DNA from: Flavobacteriales bacterium
GTDB taxonomy: Bacteria; Bacteroidota; Bacteroidia; Flavobacteriales_D; Sanyastnellaceae
Length of the DNA: 45,616 nucleotides
NCBI GenBank assembly: GCA_027491215.1
Contig: JAIXWP010000104.1
Coordinates: 1-45,616, forward strand
Reading direction: 5' to 3'
Shown here: positions 5,680 to 45,616 of the stretch, piece by piece
Layout of the letters: every line of letters starts with the position of its first letter
Numbering within the stretch: position 1 is the first letter of the stretch
The notes under the pieces: model-generated
Seen by the model: only the letters and a program-made list of their open reading frames with translations
Told to the model about the DNA's origin: nothing
The model's database searches: none
Program-made: the position numbers and the translations under genes

Positions 5680-5685
5680 AGTATA

Positions 5686-5719
5686 AAAAAAGTGGAAATC
5701 AATCGATTTCCACTTTTTT
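5686..5719. terminator. Bidirectional Rho-independent terminator
   Basis: A perfect 15-bp inverted repeat (AAAAAAGTGGAAATC / GATTTCCACTTTTTT) with loop AATC serves both convergent genes. It overlaps the last codons of the minus-strand ABC transporter, which stops at 5699. Confidence 0.85.
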
Positions 5720-8785: not shown

Positions 8786-8822
8786 AATTTATGAGAGTAT
8801 AATTTTATATATGATCTACCAA

Positions 8823-9233: not shown

Positions 9234-9241
9234 TTTGCTAG

Positions 9242-10132: not shown

Positions 10133-10234
10133 AGATATTGATCTTTTGTTAATCACTTAGGTAGTTTCTACGGAGGAAGACCTAAAAAGATACATTCCTG
10201 AAACAAAGTAAAGTGTTTTCATCGAATCAGCTAT

Positions 10235-10242
10235 TACATTTG
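10235..10242 (+). promoter_or_regulatory. Candidate -7 promoter element of ffh
   Basis: TACATTTG is an exact match to TAnnTTTG and lies 31 bases before the ffh start codon. The same octamer occurs upstream of the nucleotidyltransferase gene (19267). Confidence 0.5.
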
Positions 10243-10273
10243 CACTCCTGTTTATCAAAGGAGCTTTACTGAT

Positions 10274-12603: not shown

Positions 12604-15600
12604 TTATTTGCCGCTCAATACTTGTATTGCTCCTTCACCAGAATATGATTTACCATCTTTTCCGGTTGCTTCATAGAAGTAGAAATAAGTACCGTCATTG
12701 AAATCCCCTTTTGGAGACCATGTGTCGTTCTCGTTCTTCAATTCAGCAACGAATTGACCATTTCTGTCATAGATCATCATTCTGAATTCTCTCAAGAAAA
12801 TACCTTGTACTTTATAAACGTCATTTTCACCATCACCATTATTAGTAACGATATTAGGAATTAGGACGCTTGAGATACCGAAGATATCTACAGAGAATGT
12901 GTTTGTTTCGCTACAGCCATCTAGGAATGCAGTTACAGTTACGTTGAAAATTTGTTCTTCTTGATATTGTGTGTACACATCCTGACCAGCGCTGAAGCTC
13001 TCATCAGTATCACCATTACCAAAATCCCATTCGAAGGTGTCAGCATTAGAGTTAACATCAAATGCAGCAGTAAATGGTAACATACCGCCGAATGAAGATC
13101 CTGAAGGATTCGGAGTTAGAACATTATTTGCATCAACATAGTAAGGATTAATTGTAACGTTGATGATTGTCACTCCAACAGTTACTTGATCAGAACCAGC
13201 ACAGCCATTTGCATCCGTTCCACTTACCGTGTAAACGGTAGTTGTAGCAGGAGAGGCTGTAGTTGTTGATCCAAAAGCAGTAGATAATCCAGCGCTTGGA
13301 GACCACTGATAGCTTGTAAGTCCAGTAGCTACCAATTCAACTTCTCCATCTTCACATATGAATGGGTTGTTGTTCAAGATATTTACAATTGGTAATGGGT
13401 TTACCACTACAGTTACTTGATCTGAGCTTGAACAGTTGTTCGCATCGGTTCCGGTTACTGTGTAAGTATTAGTAGTACTAGGCTGAGCTTGAGTAGTCGC
13501 GCTTGTTGGTGAGAATACACCTCCTGTCCATACATATGATGGTGCACCGGTTGCTGAAAGCGTTACTGTAGCACCAGCACAAATTTCAAGGTCAGCTCCT
13601 GCCGAAACGACTGGCAATGCAACTACATTGACATTTACAGTTTCTGATGCAGAGCAAACACCTGTTATTGAGTAGGTCAAAGTTTCTGGACCAATACCCG
13701 CTGTTCCTGCTGTGAATATTCCATTCGGAGTAACACCAACACCAGACCAAACACCTCCAAGTGGAGTTGCAATGATTTGCTCAGGTGCATCGTTAATACA
13801 AATTGGACCTGGGTTTGTGAGTGAAATATTTGGAATCGCAGCAATTACAATTGTTGATTGATCCTGTCCAAAGCAAACATCATCAATAGTATAGGTAACA
13901 ACATTATTTCCCACCTGCCCAATAGCAGGATTAAAGAATCCTGTTGATGATACCCCCAATCCTGTCCACACACCACCAAGTGTTGCAGCCACTAATTGGA
14001 ATCCAGAAGCATCCTCACAAATAGGAGCCACATCGGTAATAGTAGCATTGGCAAATTCTTCAACTACAATCTCAATTGAAGTTCCCGGGATACACGGATC
14101 ATTGCTAGCTAGCGTAATTTCATGAACTCCAACTCCAGCGGCCGTAGCGCTAAACGTTCCGTTCGCATTATTGGTGATTCCAGGGCCTGACCAAGTTCCA
14201 CCAGTAATATTTGATCCCAAATTAAAGGCAGGAGAACTAATACATAATGCACCTGGATCAGTGATTTGTGCGTTGATATCAGGTGATACTTCAATCTCAA
14301 TGCTCAAGTCGCCGTTACAAACGCCTGGAATCGTATATTGAATAGTGTGCGTGCCTGAACCAGCAGCAACTGGATCGAATTGTCCAGTGGTATTATTTAC
14401 AATACCGTCTCCACTCCACTGTCCAGAATTAATATCAGGAGTCAATGCAAGGTCTAAAATTCCTTGGTTATAACAGATGAATCCTGGATCTACTATCGTA
14501 GAGGTATTAGTTGGAACCACCTCAATTTGATATGACGTTGAACTGATACAGCCAGAATTAAAATTATAGTTAACTGTTATAGTTCCTGAACCCGAAATTG
14601 AAGGATCAAAAGTTCCATTGGTAGCATTTGTAATTCCAGGACCTACCCAAGTTCCACCTGTAGGCGAACCTACTAAGTTTATAGGGCTTCCAAATTCACA
14701 AATTTGACCTGGATCATTGATACTCGCTGGCTGTGCACCAACAACAACAATATCTGCGGTCTGAGTTCCATTGCAAAAATTAGCAATAGAGTATGTAATC
14801 GTTTCAGTACCTGCCCCTGCGATCGCAGGATCAAATAGACCTTGAGCTGCATCTACTATACCGAGACCTGACCATGTACCACCAGCGGTAGCCGCGTTCA
14901 AATCTACAATACCATTTAGGATACAAACTGGGCCTGGATTGGTTATGGTAGCATTAGTCGCTGGAAGCAATTGAATAGTTACCTGTGCTGTTGATACACA
15001 ACCTCCACTATTCAATGTATAAAGGATAATTTTATTTCCAGCTGCTCCAGCATTATTTGGGTTCCATGTTCCGTTGGTTGCATTTGTAATACCTGGACCG
15101 CTCCAAGTTCCACCAGCTGGAGTTGCCGTAAGCGTATAGGCTGATTCGCCAATACATACCGATGTTGGCGCGAAAGTAATTGTCGCTCCAACTCCGCTAT
15201 ATTGTCTTAACTCAGAATCTGTAATATTTCCACCACAAGCCGCACCTGGTCCATTACCAGTTATTGTTAAAGTAAAAGTTGTGTTTACTTGAGGACCTGG
15301 TGATACGATTGGAGTTAAAGAACTGGTAGGGTTAGGAATAATAACATTTGGAGTAGATGTCCATTGGTAGCCATTGGTATACGGAACCGCCGCAGAAGAT
15401 GTAACTGGTACAGTAAATATAGAAGCAGTAGTTGCTGCACATGTATTGTCAGCAATTGGTGAGCTATAACCAGCAGGGGTGCTATATGTTATCGTTTGTG
15501 GATTTCCGCATCCATCTGGACCTGTAAAGCTCAACGTAGCATCTGTTAATGCTCCAGTATCAATACCTACACAATCATAAATCTGAACTCTCCAACCTGA

Positions 15601-16404
15601 TGCAGTCGCATCACATCCATTGAGGGGTGTCCAGTTAATGGGCGTGCTCGCAGCTCCATATGTTCCAAAAGTTCCTGTTGGAGTGAATGGACCTGTACCA
15701 CATACATTAAAATTGGCTGTAGACTCTGTAGAGAAGCATAAGTTGTTAATGTTATCACCACTATTACAATTGGTGCCAGGATTGGGGGATAGAGTAATTG
15801 TAGGACTGCCGCATGATGCTGGACCTACCAAATAAAATCCAAGGTCAGAAACGAATGTGTGCGTTCCACTGAAACAGATACTAATTTCTGTATTACTGTT
15901 AACAACCATTGGATCTGGAGGCACGTTGTAATATGGTGTGGCCGTTCCATATGTCACTTGACCGTTCAAGTTGACGTTACCACAACCTGGAGCCATAGGG
16001 TTAACGTTGACACTAGGATTCGACAATACTTGAGCAATCCAAGCTCTATCACAACCTACGATGTCTCCATTAGAGTCAGTAATAGTCACTCTGTAACCAC
16101 CTGGCTGTAAACTAGTAATTGTTGAAACGGCAACATCAACTTCAGTGCTGAAAGCAACAAAAGAATTGCTCACAGTACTAAACTGTTGCCATGTGAAATC
16201 AAATGGAGCTACACCAGTTCCTTGAGGTGTGGCTGTTAATGTGCCTAAACCGCCATTGCAATAGAAATAAATACTATCGTTGGTGGCACCATTAGTATAG
16301 GCAGTTAATGAGCGCGAAGCAAAACCGCTTGAAGTAATTATCTGGCTATATGCCAATACTGTCATCAATGAAAGTACGGCCAGGGCTAGAATTTTTTTCA
16401 TCAT
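12604..16404 (-). CDS. Large T9SS type B surface protein with seven GGxWSG repeats
   Basis: The 1266-residue secreted protein has a signal peptide (MMKKILALAVLSLMTVLAYSQ). Residues 135-300 resemble a proprotein-convertase P domain (ISICFSGTHTFVSDLGFYLVGP). Seven tandem repeats of about 75 residues (413-932) share GGTWSGPGI and two cysteines. Two Ig/PKD-like copies follow (930-1080), each with TYTVTGTDANNC-type text, then a PKD domain (1105-1170, FEWDFGNGDTDES). The end (1178-1266) is the gliding-motility-associated CHU_C domain (LIPNIVTNNGDGENDVY, YDRNGQFV, DGTYFYF), the type B T9SS signal. It should be exported across the outer membrane and displayed or released, as an adhesin-like protein. 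A small secreted-protein gene lies 9 bases upstream. Confidence 0.9.
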   Translation of the reverse strand: MMKKILALAVLSLMTVLAYSQIITSSGFASRSLTAYTNGATNDSIYFYCNGGLGTLTATPQGTGVAPFDFTWQQFSTVSNSFVAFSTEVDVAVSTITSLQPGGYRVTITDSNGDIVGCDRAWIAQVLSNPSVNVNPMAPGCGNVNLNGQVTYGTATPYYNVPPDPMVVNSNTEISICFSGTHTFVSDLGFYLVGPASCGSPTITLSPNPGTNCNSGDNINNLCFSTESTANFNVCGTGPFTPTGTFGTYGAASTPINWTPLNGCDATASGWRVQIYDCVGIDTGALTDATLSFTGPDGCGNPQTITYSTPAGYSSPIADNTCAATTASIFTVPVTSSAAVPYTNGYQWTSTPNVIIPNPTSSLTPIVSPGPQVNTTFTLTITGNGPGAACGGNITDSELRQYSGVGATITFAPTSVCIGESAYTLTATPAGGTWSGPGITNATNGTWNPNNAGAAGNKIILYTLNSGGCVSTAQVTIQLLPATNATITNPGPVCILNGIVDLNAATAGGTWSGLGIVDAAQGLFDPAIAGAGTETITYSIANFCNGTQTADIVVVGAQPASINDPGQICEFGSPINLVGSPTGGTWVGPGITNATNGTFDPSISGSGTITVNYNFNSGCISSTSYQIEVVPTNTSTIVDPGFICYNQGILDLALTPDINSGQWSGDGIVNNTTGQFDPVAAGSGTHTIQYTIPGVCNGDLSIEIEVSPDINAQITDPGALCISSPAFNLGSNITGGTWSGPGITNNANGTFSATAAGVGVHEITLASNDPCIPGTSIEIVVEEFANATITDVAPICEDASGFQLVAATLGGVWTGLGVSSTGFFNPAIGQVGNNVVTYTIDDVCFGQDQSTIVIAAIPNISLTNPGPICINDAPEQIIATPLGGVWSGVGVTPNGIFTAGTAGIGPETLTYSITGVCSASETVNVNVVALPVVSAGADLEICAGATVTLSATGAPSYVWTGGVFSPTSATTQAQPSTTNTYTVTGTDANNCSSSDQVTVVVNPLPIVNILNNNPFICEDGEVELVATGLTSYQWSPSAGLSTAFGSTTTASPATTTVYTVSGTDANGCAGSDQVTVGVTIINVTINPYYVDANNVLTPNPSGSSFGGMLPFTAAFDVNSNADTFEWDFGNGDTDESFSAGQDVYTQYQEEQIFNVTVTAFLDGCSETNTFSVDIFGISSVLIPNIVTNNGDGENDVYKVQGIFLREFRMMIYDRNGQFVAELKNENDTWSPKGDFNDGTYFYFYEATGKDGKSYSGEGAIQVLSGK
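13609..15168 (-). repeat. Seven tandem repeats of about 225 bp, coding
   Basis: Within the type B surface protein, the block of about 75 residues recurs seven times at residues 413-932. Each copy has a PGxIC-type start, GG(T/V)WSG(P/L/V)G near its middle and a second Cys before the next linker. The copies are diverged, so the array is old rather than a recent expansion. Confidence 0.85.
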
Positions 16405-16773: not shown

Positions 16774-16992
16774 TTGGTTTGGTTCTAAAAATTGCGGATG
16801 CCAAAGAAAATACAGAAATCGCTTCCTACGGCATTCTCATGAACATGATGTTAAAATTTAACGAACAGTTGTCTAGCTTGCATTATTTTATTGGTTTAAC
16901 CTACCTTCGTGTTTGCGCTACCCTTTCACCTTTTGAGTAGAAAACACGACACCAAGACTTGCAAGACATTGTTTTACAACAAAATATATCTT

Positions 16993-19242
16993 TTGAATAA
17001 ATTATTCACTTTAAGTACTTGTTTTTTTATCTTCTTGCAAATTACTCCATTTGAAGTAATCGGACAGTCTTTGCCCAATTTTGAGCCGGTCTACCCACAA
17101 GACGAAATTACGACCATCAAAATTCAGATTCATCCCGATAGTCTTGCCTGGATTCTGTCTGAGGAAAACCTCTACAGTGACCATGAATTTCCAGCAACAT
17201 TCATCTTTGAAAGCTCATCACTACTAGATACTATTGAAAACATCGGATTCAGACTTCGCGGAAATACCAGCAGAACTGCCGCGAAAAAGTCATTCAAAGT
17301 TTCTTTTAATACTTTTTTAAGTCAAAAATGGAATGGATTCGAGAAGTTAAATCTCAATGGCCAGCACAATGATGTAAGTCTGCTTCGCACTAAGCTTTGC
17401 TGGGACATGATGCGCGAAGCGGGACTCGTAGGCTCAAGAGTAGGCTTCACAAAGCTCTACATCAATGATGAATTCAGAGGGTTGTACCTGAACGTAGAGC
17501 ATATCGACGAGAACTTTGCTGCAACTTACTTCGATGGTGAGGGTGATGGCAACTTATTTAAGTGCCTCTACCCTGCTGATCTCACATACCTTGGATCTAA
17601 TGATGATAGTTATAAAGCGGAGGTATTTGGAAGACGCATTTATGAACTCAAAACGAATCTATGGCAAGATAACTATGCAGACCTTGCAGATTTTGTAGCT
17701 GCTTTAGATAATACTAGTAATAGCCAGCTAGCATGTGAACTAGAGTCTGTTTTTGACGTTAAAACGTATATAAAGTATGCTGCACTCGAAGTGCTTCAAG
17801 GACATTGGGATGGCTATATTTTCAATCAAAATAACTATTATCTCTATCACGACCAAGGCACAGGCTTAATGAAGTGGATACCCTACGACCTTGATAATAC
17901 CCTAGGTATCGATTGGGTGAATCAAGATTGGGCTTCACGAAACATTTATGATTGGGAACAAGGTGGTAGCGATCGTCCATTGTTCGAAAGATTAATCAAT
18001 AATGCTAAATATAGAGACTTGTACTCCCAGGCCATTGATCAATACCTCAATCAATTTTTTGAATCCAATTGGTTGGTTGATAAAGTAGATTTTTATCATA
18101 ATCTGATTTCTGAAACTGTTCAAGAAGATCCTTATTTTTCGCTAGACTATGGCTTCACTTACGATCAATTTTTAGAAGCTCCAACACAGGCCTGGGGTAA
18201 TCAAATCACCTATTCGATTGGAGCGTATTTCAATCAAAGAAAATTGACAGCTAACGCTCAACTTGAGACCTTTCAAATACAGCCCATTTTGAGCAATTTG
18301 AAAAACAATGGGCCTTCACAAGATTTCGTAGTAGTTACGTGTGAAGCAAGCGGAGTTTCCGATCCAATTTTAAAAGTTCTCGTAGACAATGTCACACCTC
18401 TTGAATTTCCGATGTTGGATGATGGAGTGTTCCCTGATATAGTGGCGAATGACTACATTTTCACTACAGGCTTTGATGCCCCAACAGGCGATAAACTAAA
18501 TTATCAGGTGGGCTATATTTTCAACGGAAACGAGCAATTATTTCCGTGCACACCAATAACTCAATGGCTGACCAACTCCCCTACTGCGATTCAATTAAAC
18601 GAGGTCATGCCCAATAACCTGAGTACCGTTGCAGATGAAGTTGGCGAGTACAATGACTGGATTGAACTATATAATTCTGGAAACTTAAATGTCAATTTGA
18701 GTCCCTTCTACCTCACAGATGAAATCAACAACTGGAATAAATGGAAGCTTCCAGCTCTGAATTTATTTCAAAATGATTTCAAAGTTATCTGGGCAGATGA
18801 CCAGCCTCAGCAAGGAAATTCTCACACCAATTTTCAAATAAGTGCAAACGGAGAAACAATTTGGTTGATTCGCTACGAGAGCAATGCTCCTAGAATAGTT
18901 GATGCGATCTATGTTCCTGCTTGCATCGTTGATGAATCATATGGCAGAGAAATGGAAACCTCAAATGAGTGGATTCATTTTAACCCAGCTACTCCTGATG
19001 CACCTAATATGATTGTTTCAGTTGAAGAATCTATGTTGTCAGCCATTCAATGGTATCCCAATCCTGCGCAAGACATCCTTCATTTTACCAAAGAAATAGA
19101 TAGCCTTCAGGTATTTGACTTAGCGGGAAGATTTGTTCTCTCCAAACAAAGAATTAAATCATTGGATACTTCTGGTCTTCAAAATGGCATGTATATTTTT
19201 CAAGTAAATACTGAGACTTTCCCCGTTGTTATTAGTCGCTAA
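16993..19242 (+). CDS. CotH-family protein with lamin-tail domain and T9SS type A signal
   Basis: The frame can open at GTG 16909 (777 residues), but TTG 16993 is preferred: it gives MNKLFTLSTCFFIFLQ, a normal signal peptide, and a 749-residue product. The CotH kinase-like domain covers roughly the first 400 residues. It shows GFRLRGNTSR, a KSFKVSF lysine, LNLNGQHNDVSLLRTKL and WIPYDLDNTLG with the acidic metal-binding residues. A lamin-tail domain follows (LNEVMPNNLSTVADEVGEYNDWIELYN). The final 70 residues (WYPNPAQDILHF, LQNGMYIFQV) are a type A T9SS sorting domain. CotH proteins phosphorylate spore-coat or surface proteins; the target here is unknown. It is exported and probably surface attached. 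Confidence 0.85.
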   Translation: MNKLFTLSTCFFIFLQITPFEVIGQSLPNFEPVYPQDEITTIKIQIHPDSLAWILSEENLYSDHEFPATFIFESSSLLDTIENIGFRLRGNTSRTAAKKSFKVSFNTFLSQKWNGFEKLNLNGQHNDVSLLRTKLCWDMMREAGLVGSRVGFTKLYINDEFRGLYLNVEHIDENFAATYFDGEGDGNLFKCLYPADLTYLGSNDDSYKAEVFGRRIYELKTNLWQDNYADLADFVAALDNTSNSQLACELESVFDVKTYIKYAALEVLQGHWDGYIFNQNNYYLYHDQGTGLMKWIPYDLDNTLGIDWVNQDWASRNIYDWEQGGSDRPLFERLINNAKYRDLYSQAIDQYLNQFFESNWLVDKVDFYHNLISETVQEDPYFSLDYGFTYDQFLEAPTQAWGNQITYSIGAYFNQRKLTANAQLETFQIQPILSNLKNNGPSQDFVVVTCEASGVSDPILKVLVDNVTPLEFPMLDDGVFPDIVANDYIFTTGFDAPTGDKLNYQVGYIFNGNEQLFPCTPITQWLTNSPTAIQLNEVMPNNLSTVADEVGEYNDWIELYNSGNLNVNLSPFYLTDEINNWNKWKLPALNLFQNDFKVIWADDQPQQGNSHTNFQISANGETIWLIRYESNAPRIVDAIYVPACIVDESYGREMETSNEWIHFNPATPDAPNMIVSVEESMLSAIQWYPNPAQDILHFTKEIDSLQVFDLAGRFVLSKQRIKSLDTSGLQNGMYIFQVNTETFPVVISR

Positions 19243-20735: not shown

Positions 20736-23285
20736 ATGAAACACAGAATCTATTTCCTCTTGGCGTTTCTGCCTTCTTTTGCTATTGCACAAGGATACAA
20801 CTTTGCAAATTCCGAATACAATATCAATGTTCTAAATACGGGTGGTATTCTTCACGGAGCGGGAGTAACTTTCTATGATTTCAATAAAGATGGTCTAGAC
20901 GACTTGACGTTCTGCACTGCTAGTGACTCATTGATTTTTTATGAAAGCACTGGCACAGGCTTTAATAGAATAGAAATTATTCCGAACACACTCGATATGC
21001 GTCAAGCTTCTTGGGTGGACTATGATAACGATGGCGACGCTGACCTACTTGTCACTAAAGCGCGTAATGTCGGAAACAACACGAAGCTATACCGCAACGA
21101 TGGATGGCCGGTTTTTACTGATGTAACAGCACAACTCAATATGCCTAATTTCGGAGGCGTGCGTTCATATGGTCAAGCTTGGGGAGATTACGATAGAGAT
21201 GGATATCTCGATTTGTACATATGTAATTACAACCTCGGTGGTGGTATCACGAACTGGTTATTTCATAACCTAGGAGATGGGACCTTTGAAGAGGTGTCCT
21301 TCATTGCTGGTGTAGATAATGGAACCAGACTTTCATTCCAAGCTGCTTGGCAAGACTTCAACGAAGATGGTTGGTTAGATTTATATGTCATCAACGACCT
21401 TGACCAACAGAGCTACATGTACTACAATAACCAAGACGGAACATTCACCGACGTCAGTATTGAAACAGGTACAAACATCATGATTGAGGCAATGTGTATT
21501 TCAATAGATGATCTGGAACAAGACGGAGACTGGGATATATATGTTTCAAATATTGCTGACGGGAATTATTATCTTATCAATGAAGGCGGCGTATTTTCGA
21601 ATCAAGCAGCTGCAGCCGGACTTGAAGTTAATCGCATGACCTGGGGAGTAACATGGGTTGATTATGATAATGATGGCGATAATGATGTTCATATGGTCAC
21701 AACCCAAGGAAGCAATAATCAAAATCCATTTTTCACAAACAATGGTGATGGAACATTTACAGAAACTAACTCGATAGGTTTTGAAGGAGATCTGACCAAT
21801 GCCTACAGCAATGCAAAGGGAGACTTCAATAATGATGGTTTCTATGATTTGATTCACTCTACTGTTGGTAGCCAAAACAGCTATAGACTTTGGGAAAACA
21901 TTGGTTTGGGTGGCAACTATGTAAAGGTTGATCTCACTGGAGTTGTAAGCAATCGTGATGCGATTGGTTCCACTGTTGACTATTGGATCGGTGGTGTGAA
22001 AAAGCGATATTTTACCGCTGTTGGAGGAGGCTTTTTATCTCAAAATGCACACACTCAAATCATCGGTATAGCTGATGCTACGCAGATTGATTCTATTCAG
22101 ATCAATTGGCCAAGAGGCATCGTAGAAAAGCACTACAACCTTCAAGCTGGACAACGATATGATTTCACAGAAGGAGAAACTTTTGCAGCGGAAATCACAA
22201 CTACAAATGATCAGTTCTTATGTGAGTCACTTGTGCTCGATGCTGGCGAATGGAACTCATATACTTGGTCTGACAGTTCATCTGATCGCTATCTCACAGT
22301 TACTGAACCAGGCACATATGAAGTTATAGTGACTAATGAATTTAACTTGCCTATCATTGCTTCTATCGAAATATTTGAAGGAGTGTTCAATGACTTCGTT
22401 TCTACTGTAACGCCTTTGGACTGTCACAATGAAACAAGCGCAAGTATCCTTCTCTCAGAGTCCAATGACGCTACATTCAGCATTATTTGGGAAAATGAAA
22501 GCACAGAGCCGAATCGATTTGATCTTGGTCCTGGCGAATACTCTTATGTTGCCACCAGTGAAACAAACTGCATCACTTCTGGAATATTCTCTATTTCGAA
22601 TCCTGACTCACTGTATTTGGAACTCATAACAACTGATGTCACTTGTTTTGGGTTGGATAATGGAAGCGCTATTTTCAATGCTTTTGGTGGTACCGGTGTG
22701 TTCACATTTGACTTTGGTAATTCCCTTCCTGAATCGCTCGCGGCAGGTGAATATACTTTCAGTGCAACTGATGAAAACTTGTGTCTTGTGGATACCACCT
22801 TCGTTATCACCGAACCTTCATTAATCATAGTTTCGGATATAATTAATGACGCTGAAAACGGCAACAATGGATCAATTGAATTGACTGTATCAGGCGGAAC
22901 ACCAGAATACTCTTATTTATGGAGCAATGGAGATGAAGATGCTACTGCGGAAAATATTGGTCAAGGTTCTTACACTTGCGTTATTACAGACTCGAATGAC
23001 TGCACCTATGAGTATGAAGGTGCTATTATTGATGTGAATGTTTCTGAAATTGATGTGACCTCACTTTCCATTTACCCGAATCCTTCAAATGATTTTATAC
23101 AATTAGAATGGAATAAAAAACCATACAATGGAATAATTGAATTGCATAGCATCAATGGAAGCCATATTCAACTCACGCAAGAATTCCTAACGCCTGGAAT
23201 GCTCGATGTTCGCTCACTTGCTAGTGGAATTTATCTGATAAAGCTAGTAGAAGAAGGAACTACAATCTCGTTTATTCGCGAATAA
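20736..23285 (+). CDS. FG-GAP/UnbV/SprB-repeat protein with T9SS type A signal
   Basis: The 849-residue secreted protein has a signal peptide (MKHRIYFLLAFLPSFAIAQ). At least six calcium-binding FG-GAP/VCBS loops follow (DFNKDGLDDL, DYDNDGDADL, DYDRDGYLDLY, DFNEDGWLDLY, DYDNDGDNDV, DFNNDGFYDL), enough for an integrin-like propeller over residues 40-390. An ASPIC/UnbV domain follows (RDAIGSTVDYWIGG to INWPRGIVEKH). Then come SprB-type repeats (VTCFGLDNGSAIFNAFGGTG, GGTPEYSYLWSNGD). The end is a type A sorting domain (IYPNPSNDFIQLEW, LASGIYLIKL). TATTTTTG (20723-20730) sits only 5 bases before ATG, so a leaderless transcript is possible. The last 14 bases overlap the convergent MutS2-like gene. 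Confidence 0.88.
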   Translation: MKHRIYFLLAFLPSFAIAQGYNFANSEYNINVLNTGGILHGAGVTFYDFNKDGLDDLTFCTASDSLIFYESTGTGFNRIEIIPNTLDMRQASWVDYDNDGDADLLVTKARNVGNNTKLYRNDGWPVFTDVTAQLNMPNFGGVRSYGQAWGDYDRDGYLDLYICNYNLGGGITNWLFHNLGDGTFEEVSFIAGVDNGTRLSFQAAWQDFNEDGWLDLYVINDLDQQSYMYYNNQDGTFTDVSIETGTNIMIEAMCISIDDLEQDGDWDIYVSNIADGNYYLINEGGVFSNQAAAAGLEVNRMTWGVTWVDYDNDGDNDVHMVTTQGSNNQNPFFTNNGDGTFTETNSIGFEGDLTNAYSNAKGDFNNDGFYDLIHSTVGSQNSYRLWENIGLGGNYVKVDLTGVVSNRDAIGSTVDYWIGGVKKRYFTAVGGGFLSQNAHTQIIGIADATQIDSIQINWPRGIVEKHYNLQAGQRYDFTEGETFAAEITTTNDQFLCESLVLDAGEWNSYTWSDSSSDRYLTVTEPGTYEVIVTNEFNLPIIASIEIFEGVFNDFVSTVTPLDCHNETSASILLSESNDATFSIIWENESTEPNRFDLGPGEYSYVATSETNCITSGIFSISNPDSLYLELITTDVTCFGLDNGSAIFNAFGGTGVFTFDFGNSLPESLAAGEYTFSATDENLCLVDTTFVITEPSLIIVSDIINDAENGNNGSIELTVSGGTPEYSYLWSNGDEDATAENIGQGSYTCVITDSNDCTYEYEGAIIDVNVSEIDVTSLSIYPNPSNDFIQLEWNKKPYNGIIELHSINGSHIQLTQEFLTPGMLDVRSLASGIYLIKLVEEGTTISFIRE

Positions 23286-37127: not shown

Positions 37128-39737
37128 TTACTTTTCGATGGTTTGCACTGGAACTCTCGTACCTTCTTTATAGCCTACAATAAATGAATCAACAAACCCT
37201 CTTTTTTGAAGAACTGCTAGTGCAGCCTCTGCCTTTGCATAGGTAGTAAACATCCCCACACAGTATCGAGTAAATCCAGCCTTGGTTCTTTCAGCATAAA
37301 TTGGTTCAATACCGTTGAAAATTTCTGCATCTATTTGCTCACGAAAGGCCCCTACTTGAATCATATAAAGCTTTCCTGCAGGTAGCGAATTATTCTTTGT
37401 GATCGCCTCACTCGACGGGTATTGGATATCTACTCCGTAATTGAATCTATCCGCCTCTAATGGTGCGGATAATACAATTGACTGGCCTTCCACTCTAACT
37501 TCAGTAGTACTTGTATTATTAGTACTTGAGCTAGTAGGAATTGGGTTTCCAGATACCTTAGTTGAGTCGGATGAAGTAGCAACATCTGGAGTATCAACTA
37601 CGGATTCATTCTTCTGTAGTACCTTGAATTCTGTTCTTCTATTCAAAGCTAATTCATCTTCTGTACAAGTAGTCTGCTTTGCTCCTTCGCAAATACAGCC
37701 ATTGACAGGCACTTCTTCACCATACCCCTTGTACTTTAACTGAGCTTGCGTTACCCCTTTATTCAGTAGATATTTTACAGTGGAGTTTGCTCTTTTTGAT
37801 GAGAGTGTAGCATTAGCATTTTTATTCCCACGACAGTCGGTATGTGATCCACATTCAATTTTTATATCTGGGTTATTGATCAATATTTCAGCGATCTTAT
37901 CCAATTCCGTTGCACCTTGAACAGTTACATCCCACTTCGCGGATTCGAAATAAATTGGCTGAATCGCTAATAATGCTCCGAGATCGTCACCTACCGAAAT
38001 CTTTTTCATCGTTAGGTCACAAATTGAATTCAAATCGAACTGAGAATTGTTTGATTGAATCTTTACACTACTAATTTTCTTAGGTGCATAACCTTGCTTA
38101 CGCAGTTCGATATCAAATAGTGAATTTTCTGATAGTGCTTTTAAATCCAAGCCTTGAGTGAAAGCTCCGCCTGAACCAGAGGTCAAAGAATCATGTCCAG
38201 CAGATGTATTGAAATAAACAGTAACACCTTCGATACCTTCTCCTGATTCCAGATCTTTCACAATACCATTCACATCCAATGATGTTATTGGTGAAATAGC
38301 AAGAGTTTGTCTTACACTTCTGAAATAAGCGTGAGCTGGTGCTTCATAGGTTATCTGTGCTTGCTTATATCCAGGAGCAACGATATTCAATGTTCCTCCC
38401 TCCGCTTTTGCCTTGATTAAGCCACTATCATCGGTAACTATATTCTCTGAAGTAACGGAAGTCAAATCATATTGTGTTCTCACCTCTAGACCTCTCAAAA
38501 TTTCACCTGATGTTTCATTAGTCAATTGAACTTCCCAATCACCAAAAAGACTATTATCAATGAACACAGAGTAAATATTATCATTTCCATCTCTATTAGT
38601 AGTTATGAAATACTTCCCTTTTGTATCTAATGAGTTAATCAAATAAAAATCATCACGAGTAGAGTTTAATGGCAAGTCAAGCAACTTTGGCTCCGACCAT
38701 GCTCCATCTCTGTTCATGTAACATGAGTAAAGATCCAATCCCCCAAAACCACTTGCTCTGTCAGATGCAAACACGAGAATACTATCTGTTACCAATGTAG
38801 GATAAACCTCATCATCAGAAGTATTGATATTTCCAGCAACAGCTTGTGGCTCTCCGTATGTGCCATCATCATTTCTCACTACAGAATACAAATCCATTCC
38901 ACCTCTGCCATCTGGTTTATTGCTAGAGAAGAAAAGAATATTTGTTTTTGAATTAAAAAATGGGTGCGCGTAGGATGATTGCTTATCACAAAAAGAAAGT
39001 TCAGTCACCTTATTATCTTTCAATGTTGAAGTGCGTTTTTCGAAAAGGCTTAAGTGAGCTGGAGCCTTCTTCCCTTTAGCAGCAACGTTTCTGTTGATTA
39101 CCATGATACCTGCATCCTCTGCGATAGTAACCGGACCATCGTGCATAGCAGAGTTAATCGCAGCAAAACTGTTGCTATATGAGCCACTGCTATCTGAAAT
39201 TTGTAAAAAAGGTTTATCGTGCCATTTGAATTTGCTAGATGGAGAATAATTAGTAGCATGATTTGACATATAGTAAATATCTCCAACATAATAAAAAGGC
39301 GTCATTTCATCATCGAGTGAGTTAAATTCTTCTACATTGACTTTAATCTCCGTTTTCGCCTCCTTCACGAGTGGATTTTGGTACAGCACCTCTCGCCCTC
39401 CCGCTTCTGCAGATACTAGTTGCGCTAGTCTAACACTTTCTGTTAGATTACCCATTTGTTTTAATGCTTCACAATACATCAACTTTTCGTCAGCAGACAT
39501 TGTCTCTTCTGGCACCTTTGCAAAAGCTTCTGCTGCCTTGTCCATCTTGAGCATATTAAAATTGCTCAAGGCAAGAATGCGATATTTCTGAGCATCCTCT
39601 CCTTTGATAGACTCACAAACCTTTGCTGCTTCAGCAAATGATTTTTCGTTGTAGAGTTTTTCAGCATACTTCAGTCTTGCAGAACTTCCGCATGCCATTA
39701 AGAAAACTACTAATATTATTAAATATGATGATTTCAT
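37128..39737 (-). CDS. PorE-like lipoprotein: TPR, PD40 propeller, regulatory domain, OmpA and SPOR
   Basis: ATG 39737 (869 residues) is chosen because it places MKSSYLIILVVFLMAC as a lipoprotein signal with Cys16; the frame opens 9 codons earlier. Domains in order: TPR-like helices (20-115), PD40 blades (about 250-395, LFFSSNKPDGRGGMDLYSV, LVFASDRASGFGGLDLYSC), a carboxypeptidase-regulatory-like domain (485-565), an OmpA peptidoglycan-binding domain (590-708, GSHTDCRGNKNANATLSSKRA with the binding Asp and Arg), a Ser/Thr-rich linker, and a SPOR domain (788-860, LYMIQVGAFREQ). The first four match PorE, the T9SS-associated protein tying the machinery to peptidoglycan. The SPOR addition is notable. 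It lies 23 bases after the PorP/SprF gene. Confidence 0.88.
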   Translation of the reverse strand: MKSSYLIILVVFLMACGSSARLKYAEKLYNEKSFAEAAKVCESIKGEDAQKYRILALSNFNMLKMDKAAEAFAKVPEETMSADEKLMYCEALKQMGNLTESVRLAQLVSAEAGGREVLYQNPLVKEAKTEIKVNVEEFNSLDDEMTPFYYVGDIYYMSNHATNYSPSSKFKWHDKPFLQISDSSGSYSNSFAAINSAMHDGPVTIAEDAGIMVINRNVAAKGKKAPAHLSLFEKRTSTLKDNKVTELSFCDKQSSYAHPFFNSKTNILFFSSNKPDGRGGMDLYSVVRNDDGTYGEPQAVAGNINTSDDEVYPTLVTDSILVFASDRASGFGGLDLYSCYMNRDGAWSEPKLLDLPLNSTRDDFYLINSLDTKGKYFITTNRDGNDNIYSVFIDNSLFGDWEVQLTNETSGEILRGLEVRTQYDLTSVTSENIVTDDSGLIKAKAEGGTLNIVAPGYKQAQITYEAPAHAYFRSVRQTLAISPITSLDVNGIVKDLESGEGIEGVTVYFNTSAGHDSLTSGSGGAFTQGLDLKALSENSLFDIELRKQGYAPKKISSVKIQSNNSQFDLNSICDLTMKKISVGDDLGALLAIQPIYFESAKWDVTVQGATELDKIAEILINNPDIKIECGSHTDCRGNKNANATLSSKRANSTVKYLLNKGVTQAQLKYKGYGEEVPVNGCICEGAKQTTCTEDELALNRRTEFKVLQKNESVVDTPDVATSSDSTKVSGNPIPTSSSTNNTSTTEVRVEGQSIVLSAPLEADRFNYGVDIQYPSSEAITKNNSLPAGKLYMIQVGAFREQIDAEIFNGIEPIYAERTKAGFTRYCVGMFTTYAKAEAALAVLQKRGFVDSFIVGYKEGTRVPVQTIEK

Positions 39738-39760
39738 GATAGGTGGATTAAGAGACGAGA

Positions 39761-40675
39761 TCAATATAGTCGAGGAGAAATTTGTGCACCCTTCGGTCCC
39801 ATTTGGAAGCGCAACATCACTTCATGTGTATGTCCTACCAATGTACCTAGGTCAGTTAGTTCTCGATCATATGCATATCCAAGCTTTATAAAGGGATGAA
39901 CTTGACACTCAAGCATTGCAACTGCTGCACCGTTTGTTCTATAGCCAAGACCAACTCCTATCACTTTCTTGTAATAAACATTGGCATTGATATCAGCGAT
40001 AAGTGGAGCCGCCTCGATCTGTCTTACCAGAACGCTAGGTTTCAATGTAAACAATGGATCAATTTCCCATATATAACCTAATTGATAAAAGAAATGTGGA
40101 ACTTCTAATGCTTCAGTACTGCCAGCAATGTCTGTTGCAGAAAGGGAATTCTTCAAAATACTTGGAGCTGAAATCCCCCCATAAAAAGTATCAGAATAAT
40201 AGAAAACTCCAGCCCCCACATTGAATGTCGAAGAACTCAAATTAGAACTGAAAGTTGGGTCAGATGATCCATCCAAACTATGTTGAACCCCTGCTAATCC
40301 AACAGAATACTGGGCATAATTTGCTTGGATACCAAATGCTACTCTTGCTTTTTTCAAATGCAAATGATATGAACCTGCAAGTGCAATTTGGTTTCTATCT
40401 AATACACCAATCTGATCATTGTTAAATGATATCCCCGCACCAATTTTCTCTTGGAAAAAATTCTTGTGGGCATTTGCCACTAAAGTCTTAGGAGCTCCTG
40501 GTATACCTGTCCACTGTGTACGATATAACACCGAAGCATTTATTCCCTCTGCGCTACCGGCATAGGCAGGATTAATGGCAAGGCCATTAAACATGTACAT
40601 AGAGTACTGTGGATCTTGTTGTGCAGCGCTACAAAATGGCAAGGCTACCAACAAACTGAGAATTATTTTTTTCAT
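39761..40675 (-). CDS. PorP/SprF family type IX secretion outer-membrane protein
   Basis: The start is taken at ATG 40675 (MKKIILSLLVALPFCSAAQ, a signal peptide, 304 residues); ATG 40684 is an equally possible alternative 9 bases upstream. The mature N-terminus QQDPQYSMYMFNGLAINPAYAG is the hallmark of the family, followed by barrel strands (YRTQWTGIPGAPKT, IGAGISFNNDQIGVLDRN) to the end. SprF is needed for secretion of the SprB adhesin in Flavobacterium. Copies encoded beside type B T9SS substrates are thought to be dedicated partners, which fits the giant MopE-repeat protein just upstream. Confidence 0.93.
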   Translation of the reverse strand: MKKIILSLLVALPFCSAAQQDPQYSMYMFNGLAINPAYAGSAEGINASVLYRTQWTGIPGAPKTLVANAHKNFFQEKIGAGISFNNDQIGVLDRNQIALAGSYHLHLKKARVAFGIQANYAQYSVGLAGVQHSLDGSSDPTFSSNLSSSTFNVGAGVFYYSDTFYGGISAPSILKNSLSATDIAGSTEALEVPHFFYQLGYIWEIDPLFTLKPSVLVRQIEAAPLIADINANVYYKKVIGVGLGYRTNGAAVAMLECQVHPFIKLGYAYDRELTDLGTLVGHTHEVMLRFQMGPKGAQISPRLY

Positions 40676-40686
40676 GTTTTTCATGA

Positions 40687-43600
40687 TTAACGCCATAATG
40701 TGATGAATCCAACATTTTCTTTAGACACACCTTCTACAGTAATAATGTAATAGTATGTACCTGCTGGCAAATCGCCAGTGAATGCCCCTTCTGTAGACTT
40801 GCCGTCCCAGTCATTCGCATAGTTTTCGCTTTGATAAACTAGAGAGCCGTATCGATTAAAGAATTGAACGTTAACTGATGTGCCACCTTTCAATCCTTCA
40901 AGAACTAAGAGATCATTTACACCATCGCCATTTGGTGAGAAACCTTCTGGGATGAATAATTCACATTGTTCGCTGTCGAGATAATTTGGAATACCATCAT
41001 AGTTGCAATCATCTGGTGTAATTCCATCGCCATTATAATCCAACTCTTCTGACGTAAGTAATCCATCATTGTCGTCATCTACATCACGGAAGTCTGGGAA
41101 GCCATCTCCATCTGTATCGTCTGGACCTACTCCATCATTATTCGGATCATTTTCATCTTCATCCAATGCACCGTCATTATCACTATCCAATTCTTGGAAG
41201 TCAAATAGACCATCACCATCTGTATCTACTGGTGTGTTGCCATTGCTTTCAATGCTATCGTCAAGACCATTTCCATTTGCGTCTACAATAGGACCTGTTC
41301 CGATGTATCCATCGTTGTCACCATCAGCACCATTGGTTTCTATAACATCATTGATTCCATCTCCATCGCTATCGCTATCCAATGCATCAATGATTCCATC
41401 ATTATCTGTATCACCACCATTTTGTGCTGTAGCCATTTCAACGATATCTAGAACACCATCATTATCATCATCGATATCCTGACCATCTTTTACACCATCG
41501 TTATCAGTATCTGCGCAGTCGCCTTCAAATAGACCTTCATCGATTTGCGTATCGCAGTTATTATCAATAAAGTCGCAGATTTCTATTGCATCAGGGTTGA
41601 TTGCATTATTAGTATCATCGCAATCAAGACCATTGGTAACAAAATCAGGAACTGGAGTACATGAACTTACCAATGTAGAAGGATCACCATATCCGTCAAG
41701 GTCAATGTCTGCGAAGTAGTCCACAAATACAGCGTCTTCATCGATATCTGGATCGCAGTCATTATCGATACCATCACAAACGTCAGTGTTGCCCGGATAT
41801 ACATTGTTGTTAGTATCATCACAATCGGTGCTGTCAAAGACATAGCCCGTTGGTTGGAAGCATGATATTACGAAATCATTTACATCTCCAAAGCCATCAC
41901 CATCTGCATCAGCAAAGAATGTGAATGTTGTAAATCCTTCATCGATTTGTGTGTCACAGTTATTATCTATACCATCACACTCTTCCAAAATTGCAGGATT
42001 GATATTGTTGTTAGTGTCATCGCAATCCGTGTTATCAGAAACATAACCTGCAGGGGGTGCACATGAGAGTATTGTCACATTAGGATCCCCAAATCCATCG
42101 CCATCCGTGTCCGCATAGAAGGTGTCTGGTACAAAAGTTTCGTCAATTAAAGTGTTACAGTCATTATCTAGACCATCACACAATTCGATCATCCCTGGAT
42201 AAACATATTGCTCGTTGTCATCACAGTCTGTGTTGTCTGAAACATATCCTGGAGGTGCAACACATGCTTGAACAGAAACATTTGGATCTCCAAATCCATC
42301 ACCATCATTATCCAAATAGAATGTCTCAAGTGGGAAACCTTCGTCTATTTGTGTGTCGCAGTTGTTATCAAAGCCATCACAAATTTCTGGAGCGCTCGGA
42401 TATACCGCATTGTTGCTATCATTACAATCAGTGTTGTCAGTGGTAAACCCTGGTGGTAATGCACATGCTTCGATGGTATTGTTTGGATCTCCGAATCCGT
42501 CTGCATCATTATCGGCAAAGAATATTTCAAGCGGCGAAAGTCCTTCATCAATAAACGAATCACAGTTATTGTCTAAACCATCACACAATTCAGCTGCACC
42601 AGGGAAGAATGTGTTGTCGCTATCATCACAGTCCAAATCATTGTCAACAAAACCTACTGGTTGAACACATGCTTCAACAGGATTATTTCCATCTCCAAAT
42701 CCATCTCCATCTGCGTCTAACCAATATGTTGTTGTAGCAAATCCATCATCAAAAATGAGATTACAATCATTATCAATCCCATCACAAATTTCAATTGCTC
42801 CAGGGAATACCTCATCATTTGAATCATCACAATCAGTGTTATCGGTTACATAACCAATGGGCGCTACACAAGCTTGTGTGGTGTTATTTGGATCTCCAAA
42901 CCCATCGTTATCTGCATCTAGATAGAATACAATATCTCCTTCTTCATCAATATCTAAATCACAATCATTATCTTCTCCATCGCATACTTCATTTGCGTTC
43001 GGGAAGATTGCATTATTCGTGTCATCACAGTCAGTATTGTCGCTCACATATCCGGTTGGTGCTGTGCAAGCAAAAATTGAGTTGAGGGGATCACCAAATG
43101 TATCGCCATCTGTATCAGCGAAGAATTCGATGTTTCCTGTTTCGTCAATTTGTGTGTCACAGTTGTTATCAATACCATCACAAACTTCTAGTGCATCTGG
43201 AGAAATCGCGGCATCCGTATCATCACAATCAAGGTTATTAGCAACATATCCTGTTGGTGGAGTGCAAGCTAAAATCGTATTGGTTGGATCTCCGTATGTA
43301 TCACCATCTGTATCGGCAAAGAATACCAATGCTCCAGTTTCATCAATTTGGGTATCGCAATCGTTATCTACTCCATCACATACTTCTGTAGCTGATGAAT
43401 TGATTGCATTGTTATTGTCATTGCAATCGGTATTGTCAGCAACGAAACCTACTGGTGCACTGCAAGCAAGTGCTGTTATGTTTGGATCACCAAAACCGTC
43501 ATTATCATTGTCTGCATAGAAAGTTGTAAATGCTCCTTCATCAATAGCGAAGTTGCAGTTTTGATCTATTCCATCACAGATTTCAATTTCACCAGGATTG

Positions 43601-45616
43601 ATATTATTATCCGTATCATCACAATCAGTATTGTCAGATACAAATCCAGCTGGTGCGAAACATGCCAATGTTGTTACCGCAGGATCACCGAATCCATCTC
43701 CATCTGTATCTGCATAAAACACGTTGGTGCCACCTTCATCGATTTGTGTATCGCAATCGTTGTCTTCAGTATCGCAAACTTCTGTTCCAGCAGGGTTATT
43801 CGTCGCATTCGTATCATCACAATCGGTGTTATCCGAAACATAACCTGCAGGTGCAGAGCAAGCAAGGATTGTATTTAATGGATTGCCATAAGTATCTCCA
43901 TCATTATCTGCGTAGTAAGTTGTTTGAACTCCCTCATCGATTTGTGTGTCACAATCATTATCCACTAAGTCACAAACTTCAGTTCCATTCGTATTGATAG
44001 ATGCATCTGTATCATCACAATCAGTATTGTCTGTTACATACCCTGTTGGAACTGAGCAAGCCAAAATTGTATTCAATGGATCACCGAATGTATCTCCATC
44101 GGTATCTGCATAAAATATAGTCTGAACTCCTTCGTCAATTTGCGTGTCGCAATCATTATCGATTCCATCACAAATTTCCGTTGCAGCTATATTAATAGCA
44201 CTGTTAGTGTCATCACAATCGGTATTGTTTGCTACATATCCAATTGGCGCACTGCAAGACAGAGTTGTATTTAATGGGTCTCCATATGTGTCACCATCAG
44301 TGTCTGCGTAGAATGTAAGGAACGCGCCCTCATCAATAAGAGTATTACAGTTTTGATCAACACCATCACAAATTTCAGTGGCACCTTGATTGATGGTATT
44401 ATCTGTATCATCACAATCGGTATTATCTACTACAAATCCAATAGGTGCGAAACATGATAGCGTCGTAACTGCTGGATCACCAAATCCATCTCCATCAGTA
44501 TCTGCATAGAAGACGTTTGTTCCACCCTCGTCTATTTGAGTATCACAATCATTGTCTTCAAAATCACAAACCTCTATTCCTGCAGGATTATTCGCAGGAT
44601 TAGTGTCATCACAATCTGTATTGTCTGTCACATAACCTATAGGTGCTGTGCAACCAAAAATGATATTTAATGGATCACCATAGGTATCGCCATCAGCGTC
44701 AGCATAGAAAGGAATGTTACCCGTCTCGTCAATTGAAGTATCGCAATCATTATCCACACCATCACAAATCTCTGCTGCTGCTGGATTGATAGCTGCATTT
44801 GAGTCATCGCAATCTGTGTTGTCTGAAACAAAGCCCAATGGAGCTGTACATGCCAAAACTGTATTTAGTGGATCACCATAAGTATCACCGTCAGCATCTG
44901 CGAAGAAAGTCAGTTGTACTCCCTCATCTACGAGTACATCGCAATCATTATCAATTCCATCGCAAAGCTCTGCTTCGCCGGGATTGATGTTTGCATCAGA
45001 ATCGTCACAATCAGTATTATCTGTTACGTATCCTATTGGAGCTGTGCAGGCATCAATTGTGTTTAATGGATTACCGAAGTTGTCTCCATCAAGGTCCTCA
45101 TAGAATGTGATAAGTACACCTTCATCTATTAAGGTATTACAGTTCTGATCGATGCCATCACAGAGTTCAATAGCAGCAGGATTGATATTATTATCGGTAT
45201 CGTCACAATCTGTATTATCTGTTACATACCCCGCTGGTGGCACGCATGCCATTGTCGTATTCAATGGATCACCGAAACCATCATTATCTGCATCAAGATA
45301 GAATACTATGTTGCCGGTTTCATCAATTGCTAAATCACAATCATTATCTATCCCATCACAAATTTCCATAGCACCCGGAAAGATGGTTGGATCGTTATCA
45401 TCACAATCTGTGTTGTCAGAAACATACCCTAAAGGTGCTGTACATGCAAGGATCGTATTTGCTGCATCTCCGAAAGTATCACCATCCGTGTCAGCAAAGA
45501 ATACTGTTTGAACACCCTCGTCAATTTGTGTGTTACAATTATTGTCGATGCCATCACACACTTCAAGCGCACTAGAATTAATCGCAGGATTCGTATCATC
45601 ACAATCTGTATTATCC
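40687..45616 (-). CDS. Giant MopE-repeat / TSP3 surface protein with T9SS type B signal (5' end outside window)
   Basis: The reading frame enters from beyond 45616 and runs at least 1642 residues; the first apparent start (GTG 45561) is only an internal Val codon. It holds 20 complete MopE-type putative metal-binding modules (CDGIDN.CDTQIDEG..., about 66 residues) plus partial ones at both ends. An Asp-rich thrombospondin type 3-like region follows (40960-41514). The final 90 residues (40690-40959; FIPEGFSPNGDGVNDLL, FFNRYGSLVYQ, PAGTYYYIITVEG) form the CHU_C type B sorting domain. The protein should pass the outer membrane by T9SS and stay on the surface, probably calcium-stiffened. The missing N-terminus should carry a signal peptide. 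The PorP/SprF gene follows directly. Confidence 0.93.
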   Translation of the reverse strand, partial: DNTDCDDTNPAINSSALEVCDGIDNNCNTQIDEGVQTVFFADTDGDTFGDAANTILACTAPLGYVSDNTDCDDNDPTIFPGAMEICDGIDNDCDLAIDETGNIVFYLDADNDGFGDPLNTTMACVPPAGYVTDNTDCDDTDNNINPAAIELCDGIDQNCNTLIDEGVLITFYEDLDGDNFGNPLNTIDACTAPIGYVTDNTDCDDSDANINPGEAELCDGIDNDCDVLVDEGVQLTFFADADGDTYGDPLNTVLACTAPLGFVSDNTDCDDSNAAINPAAAEICDGVDNDCDTSIDETGNIPFYADADGDTYGDPLNIIFGCTAPIGYVTDNTDCDDTNPANNPAGIEVCDFEDNDCDTQIDEGGTNVFYADTDGDGFGDPAVTTLSCFAPIGFVVDNTDCDDTDNTINQGATEICDGVDQNCNTLIDEGAFLTFYADTDGDTYGDPLNTTLSCSAPIGYVANNTDCDDTNSAINIAATEICDGIDNDCDTQIDEGVQTIFYADTDGDTFGDPLNTILACSVPTGYVTDNTDCDDTDASINTNGTEVCDLVDNDCDTQIDEGVQTTYYADNDGDTYGNPLNTILACSAPAGYVSDNTDCDDTNATNNPAGTEVCDTEDNDCDTQIDEGGTNVFYADTDGDGFGDPAVTTLACFAPAGFVSDNTDCDDTDNNINPGEIEICDGIDQNCNFAIDEGAFTTFYADNDNDGFGDPNITALACSAPVGFVADNTDCNDNNNAINSSATEVCDGVDNDCDTQIDETGALVFFADTDGDTYGDPTNTILACTPPTGYVANNLDCDDTDAAISPDALEVCDGIDNNCDTQIDETGNIEFFADTDGDTFGDPLNSIFACTAPTGYVSDNTDCDDTNNAIFPNANEVCDGEDNDCDLDIDEEGDIVFYLDADNDGFGDPNNTTQACVAPIGYVTDNTDCDDSNDEVFPGAIEICDGIDNDCNLIFDDGFATTTYWLDADGDGFGDGNNPVEACVQPVGFVDNDLDCDDSDNTFFPGAAELCDGLDNNCDSFIDEGLSPLEIFFADNDADGFGDPNNTIEACALPPGFTTDNTDCNDSNNAVYPSAPEICDGFDNNCDTQIDEGFPLETFYLDNDGDGFGDPNVSVQACVAPPGYVSDNTDCDDNEQYVYPGMIELCDGLDNDCNTLIDETFVPDTFYADTDGDGFGDPNVTILSCAPPAGYVSDNTDCDDTNNNINPAILEECDGIDNNCDTQIDEGFTTFTFFADADGDGFGDVNDFVISCFQPTGYVFDSTDCDDTNNNVYPGNTDVCDGIDNDCDPDIDEDAVFVDYFADIDLDGYGDPSTLVSSCTPVPDFVTNGLDCDDTNNAINPDAIEICDFIDNNCDTQIDEGLFEGDCADTDNDGVKDGQDIDDDNDGVLDIVEMATAQNGGDTDNDGIIDALDSDSDGDGINDVIETNGADGDNDGYIGTGPIVDANGNGLDDSIESNGNTPVDTDGDGLFDFQELDSDNDGALDEDENDPNNDGVGPDDTDGDGFPDFRDVDDDNDGLLTSEELDYNGDGITPDDCNYDGIPNYLDSEQCELFIPEGFSPNGDGVNDLLVLEGLKGGTSVNVQFFNRYGSLVYQSENYANDWDGKSTEGAFTGDLPAGTYYYIITVEGVSKENVGFITLWR
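40960..41514 (-). repeat. Thrombospondin type 3-like Asp-rich repeats, coding
   Basis: About 185 residues of calcium-binding DxDxDGxxD loops (DTDNDGVKDGQDIDDDNDG, DTDGDGLFDFQELDSDNDG, DTDGDGFPDFRDVDDDNDG) join the MopE array to the sorting domain. Confidence 0.9.
41578..45616 (-). repeat. MopE-type module array, 20 complete copies of 198-204 bp
   Basis: Each module has cysteines near positions 1, 8, 39 and 52, an IDEG/T turn, a DxDGDxxGDP loop and a PxGYVxDNTDCDD loop. Modules 1-14 are exactly 66 residues, module 16 is 68, and modules 15 and 17-20 are 67. Modules 3, 7 and 11 share DQNCN; 6 and 10 share GGTNVFYADTDGDGFGDPAV; 5 and 9 share NNPAG. This gives a four-module period of 792 bp. Confidence 0.92.

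Follow-up and report, generated by a model that had tools for sequence, protein, structure and literature searches.

The window analysed here, a stretch of 45,616 bases that makes up the entire contig C105 of a genome in 150 contigs, carries a giant gene for an array of cysteine-bearing MopE-type modules and thereby raises the question of what such an array builds, how it is held on the cell and which ion it binds. The module family, PF11617, has a copper name and the description 'putative metal-binding motif', yet long arrays of it occur in several phyla. The present analysis favours, with good though incomplete confidence, a calcium-stiffened, disulfide-clamped stalk that would be exported by the type IX secretion system (T9SS) through a type B signal and anchored to the wall via PorP and a PorE-like protein, rather than a gliding adhesin. 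This reading draws on features of the sequence, namely the modules, the co-loss of cysteines, the type B signal, the gene order, the absence of histidine, the acidic columns and the presence of SprA.

The module array and its sorting signal

The giant open reading frame (ORF), which occupies 45615-40687 on the minus strand, runs for 1642 codons plus a stop and is open at the contig end. Its parts are as follows.

41626..45606, minus strand: 20 complete MopE-type (PF11617) modules with four Cys each, from the unit table and the PF11617 profile match
41515..41625, minus strand: a 21st, terminal and shortened unit, still with four Cys, which connects the array to a DxDxD-rich linker
40963..41514, minus strand: the acidic DxDxD-rich linker, thrombospondin type 3-like by motif only
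40687..40953, minus strand: T9SS type B C-terminal sorting domain (CHU_C / TIGR04131) and stop codon, from profile matches

The PF11617 profile matches this ORF in 21 stretches at E=4.2e-182 (590.3 bits against a curated cut-off of 27), so the array is not a product of chance. When a module is taken as the unit from one DC[DN]D to the next, the lengths along the array are 14 times 66 aa and then 67, 68, 67, 67, 67 and 67 aa, and exactly four cysteines are found in 20/20 complete units, giving 80 within the modules and 86 in the whole ORF. The original prediction, made from the letters of the DNA, had claimed 20 complete modules with four cysteines each, 80 in all, and an exact length for its 66-residue modules; the unit table and the PF11617 stretches confirm the former, and 14 units of exactly 66 aa bear out the latter. 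Since the end of C105 at position 45616 falls within the array, 20 is the count of complete modules in the resolved part only.

At the C-terminus, the sorting domain scores 49.8 bits against TIGR04131 (cut-off 35) and 81.3 against CHU_C (cut-off 27). Among the array ORFs with at least two motif cores and a complete C-terminus, which come from all phyla and from loci that are not a random sample, 4/91 end in a type B-like manner, namely that of the window, L046, L140 and L159. The pattern behind this count is rough: it leaves out L047, whose end looks similar and which has an adjoining PorP, and the uninterrupted homologue L181 described below is not among the 91. For L046 and L140, TIGR04131 is confirmed and PorP is adjacent.

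Partner genes and proposed anchoring

The giant gene is followed by two further ORFs, each overlapping the one before it.

39761..40696, minus strand: PorP/SprF-family outer-membrane barrel; its ORF shares 10 bases with the end of the giant gene
37128..39764, minus strand: PorE-like protein, its N-terminal part like PorE; the ORF overlaps porP by 4 bases

The barrel scores 252.4 bits against TIGR03519 (cut-off 90.55). Queried with this PorP, the named genome collection gave no match, and among the matches listed for the first 60 relatives, identity outside this genome was at most 40%. The PorE-like protein has an OmpA domain (aa 605-689) and then a SPOR domain (aa 797-863), both above cut-off, and a fragment in the genome G001 is 57% identical to it over query residues 416-876 and has both domains as well. 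Against full-length models it reaches 192.6 bits for PorE (cut-off 600) and 235.7 for CHU_0125 (cut-off 620), and because both scores lie below the cut-offs it is labelled 'PorE-like' only. SPOR domains bind denuded septal peptidoglycan, and the fibre might therefore sit at division sites.

The anchoring model builds on PMC9143113, which describes the binding of type B proteins to PorP-like barrels (PG1035 with PorP, SprB with SprF) and postulates that those accompanied by a PorE-like protein are held fast at the wall. A mobile gliding adhesin of the SprB kind, with a stalk dragged along the surface by the gliding machinery, would likewise have a type B signal and an adjacent PorP/SprF-like gene, and the genome does encode SprA (TIGR04189, matched twice within a single 2470-aa open frame on contig C14) and a GldJ-like ORF. 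This alternative is nevertheless improbable, since the GldJ match scores below its family cut-off and a porE-like gene follows porP, the very arrangement for which PMC9143113 postulates type B proteins that are immobile and anchored to the wall. The wall-anchored stalk is thus the preferred reading for the window; in the related genus represented by G063, the gene after porP showed no OmpA domain at E<=1, so that peptidoglycan anchoring may not hold there. The original prediction had named neither the contig break nor the type B signal and the PorP/PorE-like genes, and these hint at what the rod is attached to.

Contig C10 of this genome (locus L083, 1424-20000) carries a paralogous operon, which starts with a 5229-aa ORF that has a type B domain and 125 Cys and continues with a PorP and then a PorE-like gene. 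Its giant ORF has no DC[DN]D modules and matches the PKD-like domains instead. Within the window, 12604-16404 encodes another protein with a type B domain (1266 aa, PKD/Ig-like domains), while two more proteins carry a Por_Secre_tail (type A) T9SS signal, an FG-GAP/ASPIC protein with SprB repeats at 20736-23285 and a CotH-kinase/lamin-tail protein at 16909-19242.

The probable N-terminal half

The open end of C105 coincides with the end of another contig.

45590..45616, minus strand: contig end within the array; these 27 bases are shared exactly with the end of contig C106

The last 27 bases of C106 equal the end of C105 on the other strand, and the reading frame matches. A search of the C105 array strand, over its first 5,000 bases, finds the final 18, 21 or 24 bases of this string once, at the very end, and its final 15 bases twice. 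The terminal open frame of C106 is 584 codons long; it has a signal-peptide-like start, followed by PKD-like domains (three by eye, with one PF22352 stretch) and two complete modules; its hydrophobic N-terminus was judged by eye and sits on a separate contig from the type B signal. Across the genome, PF11617 gives 31 matches on five contigs (E<=0.001). Of these contigs, C105 and C106 alone break off within an array, C96 being also open at its end but beyond its modules.

Two other genomes bear on how these halves fit together. A congener, G002, has an orthologous N-terminal half (377/558 aligned residues identical) with the same neighbour gene, and this half also ends within the array; for the C-terminal half, G002 yielded no clear counterpart. 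In G063, L181 is an uninterrupted frame of 1903 aa, stop to stop, with PKD-like domains (three PF22352 stretches), 19 DC[DN]D units, an acidic linker and a type B signal. Its next gene is a PorP with 152/307 aa identical to that of the window, which was reached only through the N-terminal query.

The 27-base in-frame overlap, the lack of other array-broken contigs and the uninterrupted L181 together make the join likely, and the N-terminal half of the window protein probably lies at the end of C106. That the C105 array and the C106 half instead belong to two separate genes, each with its own array, is quite unlikely: it agrees with the recovery from G002 of an N-terminal half alone, but it leaves unexplained an overlap that occurs nowhere else in the array, the absence of any further contig broken inside a PF11617 array and a homologue with both halves in one frame. 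In the preferred single gene, modules may be missing between C106 and C105.

History of the array

The original prediction held that the array grew by copying blocks of four modules, that units 3/7/11, 6/10 and 5/9 are related at spacing four, and that recombination between units could vary protein length while keeping the frame. The modules with relatives at a multiple-of-four spacing are the following.

45211..45408, minus strand: module 2, sister of module 14 (42835-43032) at a spacing of 12 = 3 x 4; clade 90/94
45013..45210, minus strand: module 3, in one family with modules 7 (44221-44418) and 11 (43429-43626); DNA identity 71-72%, clade 96/94
44419..44616, minus strand: module 6, sister of module 10 (43627-43824); 80% DNA and 89% protein identity, clade 100/99

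Across the 14 units of 66 aa, DNA identity at lag 4 is 68.9%, where permuted orders average 65.4% (p=0.002), with p=0.016 for protein and p=0.023 for third codon positions. When all pairs at a multiple-of-four distance are compared with shuffled orders, the DNA values are 68.7 vs 65.4% (p=0.0002) and protein gives p=0.0008. The same permutation of module order shows no signal for periods 3, 5, 6 and 7 and p=0.04 in DNA for period 2, which contains period 4. The period-four signal persists once the values of the 6/10 and 3/7/11 pairs have been replaced by the mean (p=0.0018). In the module DNA tree, whose bootstrap is not fully settled and which leaves 13/21 inner branches open, the clades 6+10, 3+7+11 and 2+14 are recovered and 5+9 is not; the closest DNA relatives of module 5 are modules 8 and 13. 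Tandem Repeats Finder (TRF), with a maximum period of 500 bp, reported a 396-bp, two-module period, which was rejected because lag 2 is raised in neither DNA nor protein.

The permutation tests and the tree thus uphold growth by four-module blocks for this lineage, and of the proposed i/i+4 relationships 6/10 and 3/7/11 stand and 5/9 is not supported. The homologue L181 shows no period four (p=0.83), so the super-repeat is not a general feature; block growth is real here without being the rule.

Ongoing recombination between units finds no support in the resolved part of the array, where the 14 modules of 66 aa have on average about 65% DNA identity and no exact DNA repeat longer than 23 bp occurs within 4,000 bases from the start of the array strand. 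Judged by a best pair that is only 80% identical in DNA, the copies are old, and the resolved part has little to offer as a substrate for recombination. As a guess, copies of greater similarity may lie in the unassembled gap between C106 and C105, given that the G002 assembly breaks at about the same place, in the third module, and that of G062 without having reached a complete DC[DN]D unit. In related genomes, 4/10 array-bearing stretches carry an exact repeat of 100-110 bp, not every copy being confirmed within modules, and recent expansion of such arrays therefore probably occurs in these genomes. Among individual cases, the genomes G005 and G024 have at least 100 and at least 110 PF11617 matches, respectively, among 110 candidates scored in each, and stretches from them (L056 and L059) carry exact repeats of 110 bp that suggest recent expansion.

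Copper or calcium

Whether the modules bind copper, calcium or both had been left undecided by the original prediction. A copper-handling protein, in which the modules would bind copper as MopE does and the rod would act as a surface copper sponge, has some points in its favour: the Pfam name of PF11617 is Cu-binding_MopE, MopE is the only PDB relative found by single-sequence search (E=0.012), and weak Cu(II) binding by MopE* may involve its first 24 residues, a segment that extends into the shared motif, with His26, inside MopE's copy of the motif, named as a possible ligand in PMC3423442. The composition of the window protein speaks against it. Specifically, the 1642-aa ORF contains no His, 4 Met and 3 Trp, and across 224 distinct units of 66 aa, drawn from this genome and others, His and Met together reach at most 5.8% at any column. 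The Cu(I) ligands of MopE are His132, His203 and kynurenine130 (an oxidised Trp), and the first residue seen at the N-terminus of its crystal is Gly47, according to PMC3423442; these ligands fall outside the shared motif, and without His a His/kynurenine Cu(I) site of the MopE type cannot be present in the ORF. The same paper reports EPR results that do not support coordination by Cys, and a study of methanotroph copper proteins left PF11617 unused for lack of specificity (PMC6189053). Beyond the motif there is no likeness to MopE/CorA, with only 36 query residues aligning to the MopE structure 2vov at E=0.012 in searches with a two-module query and a two-module profile. Copper handling is accordingly very unlikely, and the 'copper-binding' label of the modules is probably misleading; with no His and with the co-loss map described below, this label can be tested and probably corrected.

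Calcium is the likelier ion, a best guess that draws on the charge of the protein, its motif and its analogy to thrombospondin type 3 repeats. The window ORF has 400 acidic against 7 basic residues. In the 224 units, Asp, Glu or Asn occupies positions 29, 30, 39, 41 and 43, the last three within the FYADxDxD stretch, in 93-99% of cases; none of these positions is demanded by the search pattern, while positions 1, 3, 4, 15, 18 and 21 are equally conserved but partly demanded by it. Thrombospondin type 3 repeats have acidic DxDxDG loops, disulfides and little secondary structure and are stabilised by Ca2+. Their loops are like those of the modules, whereas their Cys spacing differs, and the Pfam models for these repeats gave no match to the window ORF at E<=0.001 or to two two-module queries at E<=1. 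The relative L046 has sub-cut-off matches to TSP3_bac (E=0.0028) and to a toxin-family Ca-binding domain model, and the solved relatives found besides MopE with the two-module profile are weak EF-hand matches, including polcalcin (E about 0.5). For MopE itself, CaCl2 gives protection from proteolysis (PMC3423442). Of the two ions originally considered, copper is made less likely by the missing His, the scarcity of His and Met at every column and the position of the Cu(I) ligands, and Ca2+ is left as the likely one.

Probable cysteine pairing and predicted structure

Which cysteines pair with one another was read from their joint loss across units pooled from the window, 33 stretches of its own and related genomes (C106 included) and 79 named loci, the counts covering motifs that fit the search patterns. 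Among 546 distinct units, C2 occurs together with at least one linker Cys (C4) in 528, of which 526 have exactly one, and both are absent while C1 and C3 are kept in 17; the one remaining C2-less unit carries four linker Cys. The number of cysteines is even in 545/546 units, the odd one lying in L162. At mixed-C2 junctions the linker follows the preceding motif in 45/46 cases, 29 with C2 and one Cys (18 loci) and 16 with neither (9 loci), and the exception, in L135, has four linker Cys. For the other pair, 675/683 C2-anchored cores have both C1 and C3, seven have neither (in L051, L100 and L107), one has C1 without C3 (L163, with a Cys two residues later) and none lacks C1 while C3 is present. 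Six of the C1/C3-less cores, five from L107 and one from L051, were examined downstream, and all keep C2 and C4. Copies within one array are not independent, so Fisher values overstate the significance of the C1/C3 co-loss; counting loci gives a fairer measure, and the C1/C3 co-loss is seen in just three of them.

This pattern suggests disulfides between C1 and C3 and between C2 and C4, and since the two pairs are lost independently, it speaks for two disulfides and against a single metal site made of all four cysteines. Although many Zn ribbons have four Cys and the modules likewise have four invariant ones, a Zn, Fe or Cu thiolate site is hardly credible for a protein that is predicted to be exported and whose relatives lose C2 and C4 while keeping C1 and C3 in 17/546 units, and C1 and C3 while keeping C2 in 7/683 cores (with C4 kept in 6/6 examined). 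The co-loss thus supports the disulfide-clamped beads of the original prediction. One qualification concerns the first, shortened unit on C106 and in L181, which by eye has C2, C3 and C4 and lacks C1, so that one Cys there may pair elsewhere. A mixed array is seen in L096 (Snuella sedimenti, 4072-10425), where a 2118-aa ORF combines four-Cys and two-Cys types among 26 DC[DN]D units.

An AlphaFold2 model of two modules (mean pLDDT 93.2, pTM 0.65) has four short strands and is otherwise mostly coil. A Foldseek search of the PDB with this model returned one row, at E=9.3, and none at E<=0.001.

A model of a fixed surface fibre

In the proposed mechanism, the window encodes the C-terminal half of a giant surface protein that would be exported by the T9SS and whose array would form the stalk. 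Together with C106, its domain order would run from a signal-peptide-like start over one N-terminal domain and the PKD-like domains to at least 22 MopE-type modules, followed by the DxDxD-rich linker and the type B C-terminal signal. Each module would be a small bead with little regular secondary structure, held by two interlocked disulfides. One of these would join C1 to C3 within the DCDD...DCD motif, and the other would link C2 to the Cys in the FYADxDGDxxGD...C stretch that comes next. The Asp ladders of the bead probably bind Ca2+, which would make the chain stiffer. The PorP/SprF-like barrel of the adjacent gene is the predicted docking site of the type B signal, and the PorE-like OmpA and SPOR protein would in turn tether this barrel to peptidoglycan. 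The outcome would be a surface fibre that stays in place, presumably rod-shaped and possibly adhesive, with PKD-like domains presented at its tip, and not a gliding adhesin that moves.

The family itself is widespread. PF11617 is present in 46/60 relatives and in 0/14 control genomes, and a scan of the named collection matched 577 stretches, of which 469 were confirmed; the best 80 of these represent 79 distinct loci, with titles from Bacteroidota, Myxococcota/Deltaproteobacteria, Nitrospirae and archaea. Four array contigs (L117, L133, L140 and L141) come from metagenome bins titled Klebsiella pneumoniae or Chryseobacterium gleum, titles that seem doubtful. Long PF11617 arrays are therefore not rare; what is uncommon among the loci examined is an array that comes together with both a type B signal and a PorP/PorE-like operon. 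No description of this architecture was found in the open-access literature, and the co-loss disulfide map, the case against copper and the anchoring operon are new here. The operon joins the stalk to a dedicated T9SS anchor, which makes the proposal of fixed rather than mobile type B proteins (PMC9143113) testable on another cargo.

More speculatively, and at present more doubtful than probable, the window may represent a distinct class of wall-tethered T9SS fibre, in which calcium-loaded MopE beads with interlocked disulfides would make a protease-resistant stalk that is fixed by PorP and the PorE-like protein and placed at division sites by SPOR. PF11617 might then be a general extracellular rod-building module, rather than a copper motif, in Bacteroidota, Myxococcota and beyond.

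Comparison with known systems

MopE of Methylococcus capsulatus (PDB 2vov), which gave the family its name, has one DCxD...DxxC motif near the N-terminus of MopE*, at about chain residues 14-52; unlike the window modules it is without C2, and its motif is almost wholly unseen in the crystal and is not the Cu(I) site. SprB-SprF of Flavobacterium johnsoniae is likewise a giant repetitive type B protein encoded beside a PorP/SprF gene, as described in PMC9143113. The window differs from it in that the stalk consists of MopE-type modules, a porE-like gene for an OmpA and SPOR protein follows, and a role in motility is not indicated. A further parallel is PG1035-PorP-PorE of Porphyromonas gingivalis, where a type B protein, a PorP barrel and the peptidoglycan-binding PorE cooperate (PMC9143113). 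The window encodes the corresponding trio as three overlapping ORFs, but its cargo is a giant stalk protein and its PorE-like partner carries a SPOR domain.
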